From Gemmatimonadales bacterium (GTDB lineage Bacteria > Gemmatimonadota > Glassbacteria > GWA2-58-10), in contig JAJRTS010000087.1 in assembly GCA_024278175.1 (NCBI GenBank), forward strand, positions 1 through 64,000: a stretch of DNA of 64,000 bases. The letters are read 5' to 3'. Below, one piece after another: positions 3,417-5,861 of the stretch (positions within the stretch are counted from its first letter, which is position 1; each line of letters opens with the position of its first letter). Below the pieces are notes generated by a model. It searched no databases, was not told where the DNA came from, and saw only the letters and a list, made by a program, of their open reading frames with translations. Position numbers and translations under genes: made by a program.

Positions 3417-3440
3417 CAGAAACTGCAAATCCCCCTCAAT

Positions 3441-3458
3441 CCCCTTTTGCCAAAGGGG
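3441..3458. terminator. Stem-loop downstream of fhs
   Basis: CCCCTTT-TGCC-AAAGGGG, 25 nt after the fhs stop. Confidence 0.5.
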
Positions 3459-3571
3459 GAGGCAAAAAGAACACAACAGCCTAACTAATCAACGATAAGT
3501 TGGGCCTTGAAGAACGGCTTTTTGAGGAATATCCATGTCATTATATCAACCAAAATAGTCAAGTTTTATTC

Positions 3572-3600
3572 TTGACATTAACTTATGTAGCTGCTATAAT
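3572..3600 (+). promoter_or_regulatory. Perfect-consensus sigma70-type promoter for the ParB-like/Dam pair
   Basis: TTGACA (3572-3577), 17-bp spacer, TATAAT (3595-3600). Confidence 0.8.
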
Positions 3601-3609
3601 CGTAAGAAT

Positions 3610-3628
3610 CCGTGATTGAAAATCACGG
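3610..3628. promoter_or_regulatory. Perfect inverted repeat at the predicted transcription start
   Basis: CCGTGATT-GAA-AATCACGG, 9 nt after the -10 hexamer; possible operator or 5'-UTR hairpin. Confidence 0.6.
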
Positions 3629-3703
3629 CTATCAAGGATTTATAAGATAACAATTAACAATCTGCCGTATTAATTCAGGTGAAACAGAAGTGGAGGGCCG
3701 ATT

Positions 3704-4957
3704 GTGAAAGACCAAGAAGTAAATTACATACCGATAGCAGACCTTGTATTATGGACTGAAAATCCACGCGATCAAATTGATGAAAATGCAACTGATCAGG
3801 AAATCGCTGATTTGGCTATCAATAGTCATCAATCAAGGTGGAAATTGTCTAAGCTGGCAAGCGAGATGGGTGAATACTATGACTACAGTGAATTGCCAAC
3901 CGTAGTATACCACGGAGAAAAACCCGTTGTGTATGACGGTAACAGAAGGATGATTTTAGGCAAAATCAAACATCAACTTGTTCAAGTTGACAACACGCAA
4001 AATATTACTATTCCAGATTTTCCTACAAACATACCGTGTAATGTCTGCATTGAAAGAATTGCCTTGAAAAACGTTCTAAGAAAACACGGGGATAGTGGAT
4101 CTTGGAATCCTCTGGAAAGAGATATTTTTCTCAATAAGTACATGGGGAAAAGAAAAAGCACATTTATGATAATAGAAGAAAGCACCGGATTAATAAGTGC
4201 GCATCCTCATTTAAATAAGGGGTTTGTTAAGAAGGAAATTTTTTCAAATGAACACCTAATAAGAATGGGATTTGACGTTGCAGATGGATTGTTAAAAACT
4301 AGGCATCAGGATGAAGAAGCCAAAGCCATTCTATCAGATATTTCCAAAAAAATTGAATCAAAGACTATTACCACAAGGAAGCAGCGTGGAAAAATATTAG
4401 AAAATCTCGAACCCTCAAATAGAGAACTGATAGATAACAATAAAAAGCAGAGTATGCACTCGTTTAATTATAATTTTTCACCTGCAGGCAATGAAATAGC
4501 GCTCAAGAAGCCCCGGCAATCAAAAAGGATCAAGAACGTTGGCCATACGTTATTTGGCGGCGAACTCTATCTAAGTGCAGGGTTAACCAATAATTTATAC
4601 AGAGACATTTCTGAACTGCACAAGTTTTATACGGAAAACGATAAAACCCTAGACCCATCGTTTTTTGCTTTGATCAGGATGTCATTACGCTTGTTGTGCG
4701 AAATGGCTGCGAATGATCTTGATCAGAAAATGGAGGAGTATACAAAGGAAAATTTTATTAAAGGCAAGAAGTCCCTTGACCAGAACACAACAACGACCTT
4801 GTCTACCCAAAATGTAACTGAGAAGAGCATTCCTCAATTGCTGCATGTTGGGGCACATAACTATACTACAGCATCAAACAAGGATCAAACTATTGCAATT
4901 TCTATTATTCTTGGTGCAATGCTTACAATAACGCATGGAAAAGATGATATTAAATGA
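3704..4957 (+). CDS. ParB/sulfiredoxin-fold N-terminal domain protein with uncharacterised C-terminal domain
   Basis: N-terminus IPIADLVLWTENPRDQID...LPTVVYHGEKPVVYDGNRRMILGK resembles ParB/Srx domains (LxxNPR and DGNRR-like motifs). GTG start with GGAGGG upstream. AT-rich composition. Confidence 0.75.
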   Translation: MKDQEVNYIPIADLVLWTENPRDQIDENATDQEIADLAINSHQSRWKLSKLASEMGEYYDYSELPTVVYHGEKPVVYDGNRRMILGKIKHQLVQVDNTQNITIPDFPTNIPCNVCIERIALKNVLRKHGDSGSWNPLERDIFLNKYMGKRKSTFMIIEESTGLISAHPHLNKGFVKKEIFSNEHLIRMGFDVADGLLKTRHQDEEAKAILSDISKKIESKTITTRKQRGKILENLEPSNRELIDNNKKQSMHSFNYNFSPAGNEIALKKPRQSKRIKNVGHTLFGGELYLSAGLTNNLYRDISELHKFYTENDKTLDPSFFALIRMSLRLLCEMAANDLDQKMEEYTKENFIKGKKSLDQNTTTTLSTQNVTEKSIPQLLHVGAHNYTTASNKDQTIAISIILGAMLTITHGKDDIK

Positions 4958-5814
4958 GCAACTATTATTCACCGTTAAGGTATCCAGGCGGAAAAAACTG
5001 CATCTTCAATTTTGTATCCAAGCTTTTCTACGAGAATAACTTGGTTGGAATCAACTATGCAGAACCGTATGCAGGTGGTGCTGGATTGGCATTAAGGCTA
5101 TTATTTGAAGAATATGTTAATAGAATTTACATTAATGATTTAGATAGGTCTATTTTTGCTTTCTGGAAAACAGTCGTAGAGAATTCAGATAGATTCTGTG
5201 ATTGGTTATCTGACGTTGACGTTACAATGAACACTTGGTTCAAGTGTAAGGAAATCCAAAGATACAAGAATTCAGAAAACCTTTTCACCTTAGCGAAATC
5301 TACATTTTTCCTCAACAGAACTAATATTTCAGGTGTTATAAAGGGCGGTGTTATAGGAGGCCAAGAGCAAAAGGGGAATTATAAAATCGGAGCTCGATTT
5401 AATAAAAGTGACTTGATAGAGAGAATTCAAAAAATATCAAGATATAAAGATCGAATCATTGTTTCGTCTTTGGACGGATTGAAGTTTGTTAAGAATACAA
5501 ATAAAAGCAAGGAGAAAGTGTTTTTTTATCTAGATCCTCCATATTATAAAAAAGGGGCTGATCTATATATGAATTTTTATACAAATAAGGATCACATAAG
5601 ACTTTCAAAATATGTTAATGAGATGCCCAACATGTGGATGGTTTCTTACGACAATCATGAATTCGTTTTGAAACTTTTTGGAGAGAAGAAAAAAATTATA
5701 TATAAAATTTCTCAAAGCACTTCAAATAGAGTCGGTAATGAAGCCTTGATCTTCTCTGATAAAATTCAATTCGTAGAGTCGATGGAAAGTTTGAATTCAG
5801 CTACTTTGGTTTGA
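4954..5814 (+). CDS. D12-class (Dam-like) DNA adenine N6-methyltransferase
   Basis: SPLRYPGGK N-terminus, AEPYAGGAGLALRLL (SAM motif I), NRTNISGVIKGG, FYLDPPYYKKG (DPPY motif IV). ATGA overlap with the upstream gene. Confidence 0.93.
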   Translation: MSNYYSPLRYPGGKNCIFNFVSKLFYENNLVGINYAEPYAGGAGLALRLLFEEYVNRIYINDLDRSIFAFWKTVVENSDRFCDWLSDVDVTMNTWFKCKEIQRYKNSENLFTLAKSTFFLNRTNISGVIKGGVIGGQEQKGNYKIGARFNKSDLIERIQKISRYKDRIIVSSLDGLKFVKNTNKSKEKVFFYLDPPYYKKGADLYMNFYTNKDHIRLSKYVNEMPNMWMVSYDNHEFVLKLFGEKKKIIYKISQSTSNRVGNEALIFSDKIQFVESMESLNSATLV

Positions 5815-5825
5815 ATGTATAAAAA

Positions 5826-5847
5826 GGGGCACGGCATGCCGTGCCCC
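5826..5847 (-). terminator. Perfect 22-nt palindrome; terminator-like for the minus-strand beta-helix gene
   Basis: GGGGCACGGCATGCCGTGCCCC followed on the minus strand by TTTTT. Confidence 0.7.
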
Positions 5848-5861
5848 TACGCTGTTTTGAA

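Follow-up and report, generated by a model that had tools for sequence, protein, structure and literature searches.

A low-GC ParB-fold and adenine methylase gene pair, a probable divergent form of PD-λ-5, and the exchange of methylase partners among its relatives

The window, which is the whole 64-kb stretch of DNA analysed here, contains two adjacent genes (ORF A and ORF B) in an insert of about 2.4 kb with a GC content of 36%, as compared with 59% in the rest of the window. The features observed at this locus are as follows:

3424..5833, no strand: laterally acquired segment; homology with G003, a genome of the same genus, stops at 3423 and resumes at 5834; GC 0.36
3432..3459, no strand: left-edge copy of a dispersed genomic repeat, palindromic in part; it occurs once in the window and again on other contigs of the source genome (G000) and in relatives (query 628-664)
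3572..3600, + strand: sigma-70-type promoter TTGACA-17-TATAAT
3610..3628, no strand: inverted repeat CCGTGATT-GAA-AATCACGG directly 3' of the -10 element, a possible operator
3704..4957, + strand: ORF A, PD-Lambda-5_A-like, with a ParB/Srx N-domain (ENPRD, DGNRR), a helical middle and a C-terminal helical bundle (PADLOC, hhalign, AF2, Foldseek)
4954..5814, + strand: ORF B, D12-class N6-adenine DNA methyltransferase, PD-Lambda-5_B (PADLOC, Pfam, alignment)
5825..5850, no strand: dispersed perfect palindrome or terminator-like repeat at the right edge; copies elsewhere in the genome and in relatives

ORF A encodes 417 amino acids from a GTG start, and ORF B encodes 286 amino acids from an ATG start and overlaps ORF A by ATGA at 4954-4957. 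The GC content is 0.37 in ORF A and 0.33 in ORF B versus 0.59 in the remaining window, the GC3 values are 0.36 and 0.34 versus 0.87 and 0.82 in the two flanking genes, and the A-B island has a lower GC content than any other 2.4-kb segment of the 64 kb. The initial annotation, which described two low-GC genes with this overlap, is thus confirmed in coordinates and composition, and the promoter that it assigned to the pair matches the consensus at 12/12 positions. The flanking genes, recognised by eye as fhs on one side and a beta-helix gene on the other, likewise agree with the housekeeping and carbohydrate genes named there. As already annotated, the island shows no recognisable integrase or restriction endonuclease, and it contains no further long ORF; no defence gene was recognised by eye near the pair in the 64-kb window, and the flanks of the window copy contain no recognisable phage gene.

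Comparison with related genomes exposed different contents at the same genomic site. Both flanks are present in G003 (87% and 85% identity), where the match ends at window position 3423, restarts at 5834 and is interrupted by 1.3 kb of other DNA with a different AT-rich ORF, whereas G005, from the same family, carries a GC-rich gene at the equivalent position, and no homologue of ORF A was found in the 60 relatives searched. Since the contents differ in G003 and G005 and ORF A is absent from these relatives, the site is variable, possibly a variable cargo site, and the A-B pair is most simply explained as a lateral acquisition, which bears out the horizontal origin proposed earlier. The palindromic repeats bordering the insert at both edges (3432-3459 and 5825-5850) are dispersed across the genome and its relatives. 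The ORF of G003 at this site (L052:3165-3995) encodes 276 amino acids with a likely membrane helix and has no PADLOC match.

Of the two proteins, B alone is recognised by Pfam and NCBIfam, as a D12/Dam methylase (PF02086, 3.4e-14), so that the D12 adenine methylase originally annotated holds, and it matches the PADLOC model PD-Lambda-5_B (PDLC04018) over 279/286 residues with an E-value of 1.6e-109. The EPYAGGAG and DPPY motifs are both intact in the alignment, and from these D12 motifs B is predicted to methylate adenine. An orphan Dam was also considered as the identity of B and was dropped because the partner gene is conserved.

ORF A exhibited nothing credible in Pfam or NCBIfam, no match to a nuclease family and no PDB sequence match, and its HMMER match to the PADLOC model PD-Lambda-5_A (PDLC04007; E 2.9e-10) is confined to the N-terminal ~80 residues (9-84). 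The ENPR and GNRR motifs are invariant among the A homologues aligned. The AF2 model, built from 29 sequences, has a pLDDT of 85.8 and a pTM of 0.57, and its Foldseek matches include the ParB proteins of M. xanthus and B. subtilis, at a probability of 0.94-1.00 with a best E-value of 1.5e-3, and sulfiredoxin, at a probability of 0.92. As all PDB matches fall short of E 0.001, the ParB/Srx assignment relies on the match probability, the conservation of the motifs and overall consistency. The model thus supports a ParB/Srx fold for the N-domain, grouping with ParB CTPases and sulfiredoxin, and the fold suggested initially is upheld by AlphaFold and Foldseek. Among viral models, the best structural match comes from Vibrio phage ValB1MD-2, which likewise encodes a B-family methylase. 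DGNRR can be read as corresponding to the ParB P-motif, the arginine of which is required for nucleotide binding in the ParB-fold members tested (PMC12704722), and by analogy A may bind a nucleotide. Like the ParB/Srx-fold NTPases (ParB CTPase, DndB, GmrS), A combines NPR and GNRR motifs with a Foldseek match to ParB; unlike them, it has no ParA, carries a C-terminal helical bundle where ParB has its dimerisation domain, and lies in an operon with a methylase. A parABS system was considered as well, and no ParA-like ORF was recognised by eye in the island, where A is coupled to the methylase.

The C-terminal bundle modelled alone reached a pLDDT of 85.8 and a pTM of 0.81, and the structure search with it returned generic helical bundles only; structure searches with A yielded no nuclease motif and no known effector fold. 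Sub-threshold Pfam matches to HEPN families were observed in the C-termini of a few A members and give a weak hint of a HEPN identity, whereas no HEPN fold occurs among the PDB matches listed for the bundle and the R preceding the conserved H of the HEPN Rx4-6H motif is missing in A.

The pair was compared with PD-λ-5, an anti-phage system recovered in E. coli by functional selection (Vassallo et al. 2022, PMC9519451). Models of PD-Lambda-5_A are matched in PADLOC by 26/26 members of the A subfamily, and the subfamily profile is colinear with canonical A over 374 columns (hhalign probability 99.2, E 1.4e-19), and both groups show one order of landmarks, namely NPR, (D/E)GNRR, H, W, R...E and H. 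The C-terminal domains alone gave a probability of 21% and an E-value of 0.001 against canonical A, short of a confident match. Because of the strong B match, the N-terminal A match and the colinear A profile, the window pair is assigned by sequence to a divergent PD-λ-5 subfamily and not to a new kind of system; the defence-type module of the initial annotation is accordingly retained, while its description as a little-described system gives way to a divergent form of PD-λ-5 (PMC9519451). Both are two-gene operons in which a ParB-fold A precedes a D12-type methylase B. Unlike canonical PD-λ-5, the window A belongs to a separate subfamily from which a single-sequence search scarcely finds canonical sequences, its C-terminal bundle is divergent (IRMSLRLLCE ... 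GAHNY), the window copy lies in no recognisable prophage, and some relatives of the pair add or substitute an OLD-type ATPase-TOPRIM. The module is real and laterally acquired, and its anti-phage role would follow by analogy with PD-λ-5.

Single-sequence searches returned nothing for A in genome contigs, phages and plasmids, and nothing for B in viral contigs; relatives were gathered with the B alignment (A1), which recovered 80 loci from genome contigs and 80 from viral contigs. In a quick tree of 146 B proteins, which contains some long branches, the window B falls in a clade of 29 (SH-aLRT 100), whose layouts comprise 20 A-B, 6 ATPase-A-B, 2 ATPase-B and 1 with a chimeric A. A lies upstream of B in 27/29 clade members, if the chimeric A and an A interrupted by an insertion are included. 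Almost throughout the clade, the A homologues share 45-57% identity with the window A, and the A gene mostly runs 4-26 bases into B or ends right next to it. An independent search based on A recovered L236/L237 (the same viral element as L156/L157 of the B-based set), L238 and L244, plus a canonical-type A in L245, each with B directly downstream, so that the close coupling of the two genes claimed at first is borne out from both sides. The divergences of A and B are correlated (Mantel r 0.81, 0/2000 shuffles), and the pair occurs in Bacteroidota, Beta-, Alpha- and Gammaproteobacteria and Omnitrophota, and also in prophages.

Rearrangements of the pair were also observed. L094 (8727-10861) encodes a chimeric A, whose N-terminus is that of canonical PD-λ-5_A (19% to the window) and whose C-terminus is of the window type (49%); the B that follows is clade-type (55%). 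A domains therefore recombine. L130 pairs a window-type A with a B that branches elsewhere in the tree. In L083 (376-3877) an IS256-like transposase gene (recognised by eye) interrupts A, the C-terminal remainder of which is still readable behind the insertion, and B and an upstream ATPase fragment are left.

Relatives located in prophages beside integrases (L006, L238), together with the enrichment of ParB-methyltransferase associations in phages (PMC12704722), would fit a self-modification (anti-restriction) module derived from a phage or plasmid, in which B would shield the DNA of the element and A would aid its maintenance or segregation. The flanks of the window copy, however, are free of recognisable phage genes, bacterial genome contigs supply most clade members, A is not accompanied by ParA here, and PD-λ-5 itself blocks phages (PMC9519451), which leaves such a module improbable, at odds that we regard as rather long. 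The viral contig L238 (1289-5035) encodes a RhuM-like gene (by eye), the A-B pair and then an integrase.

Across the B family, the position of A is usually taken by one of two genes, a ParB-type A or an OLD-type ATPase. An ATPase-TOPRIM gene is in the operon of 10/29 clade members, including L100 and L156, which were coded as A-B and have the ATPase just downstream of B. The alternative partner matches AAA_15/AAA_21 in Pfam and has a TOPRIM signature in its C-terminus as read by eye, and the partner protein in L077 has an ATPase-Toprim model as its best PADLOC match. The ATPase-B label changed at least six times on well-supported branches of the 146-protein quick tree, in which some branches are long, and an archaeon carries the ATPase-B form. 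Within one methylase family, an OLD-type ATPase-TOPRIM thus repeatedly takes the place of the ParB protein or stands beside it, which is new; no description of this methylase pairing was found in the literature checked. The alternative partner resembles the AriA/GajA-type ATPases of PARIS and Gabija and has a TOPRIM-like C-terminus; it differs in that it is paired with a methylase and not with AriB or GajB, and in that the ATPase is absent from the window. Many prophages, as well as some chromosomes, carry a B-family methylase and an OLD-type ATPase-TOPRIM as a direct pair (L002, L006, L102, L097 and L158-L213).

The carriage or substitution of the ATPase in 10/29 clade members, and its absence from the window, could suggest that the pair is what decay has left of a larger system with three parts (OLD ATPase-TOPRIM, A and B), or an orphan of it, and is now non-functional or only methylates. 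Such a remnant is very unlikely, as the majority of the clade has A and B alone, with frames that are open and invariant motifs that are conserved, and as the promoter and translational overlap are intact. The initial proposal that the ParB-like protein specifies, reads or regulates the mark may hold, but the partner exchange favours an effector role for A over a purely regulatory one, because a nuclease-type gene takes the place of A. In an epigenetic regulator pair, A would act as a DndB-like ParB-fold repressor or as a guide for the methylase, with no effector role, and the ATP-dependent repressor DndB is indeed found among ParB-fold proteins (PMC12704722), while the inverted repeat just 3' of the -10 element could be an operator. 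However, no conserved operator was found 5' of A in the relatives, which do not share the repeat at 3610-3628, PD-λ-5 was selected experimentally as a defence system (PMC9519451), and the substitution by ATPase-TOPRIM in the same clade fits an effector better, so that we consider this pair unlikely. The regulator pair, the self-modification module and the remnant are each less well supported than the defence reading.

On balance, we favour the defence reading with reasonable though incomplete confidence: the pair would constitute a divergent PD-λ-5-type anti-phage system with a logic resembling restriction-modification. B would methylate adenines at a specific site and mark host DNA as self, A would engage DNA through its ParB-type nucleotide-binding domain and may tell unmethylated incoming DNA apart, and the C-terminal bundle probably stops the phage from growing or kills its host cell, as in abortive infection. 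As in Type II restriction-modification, a dedicated adenine methylase could mark self DNA; unlike it, no restriction endonuclease was found in the island and the partner is a ParB-fold protein. The partner exchange supports such a logic, with B providing the self mark and the partner possibly serving as an exchangeable effector. A more specific version, which we put forward only tentatively, has a nucleotide-gated ParB-fold clamp that would load only on unmethylated DNA and serve as the alarm, with the methylase as the universal self mark and the clamp repeatedly swapped for, or joined by, an OLD-type ATPase-TOPRIM nuclease. PD-λ-5 is a broad, experimentally selected phage defence that is named, with its mechanism left unexplained, in the portions of the literature retrieved by full-text search, and the window pair matters because its relatives make this open mechanism testable: the divergent subfamily, the co-divergence of A and B, the natural chimera and the repeated ATPase-TOPRIM exchange lead to the idea that a methylase self mark guards interchangeable effectors.

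The neighbours of the clade members include other defence families and phage integrases, recorded as presence only. In L090 (2552-3658) and L096 (2401-3510), the gene directly 3' of B codes for another ParB-like protein that differs from A, and a further gene follows it.
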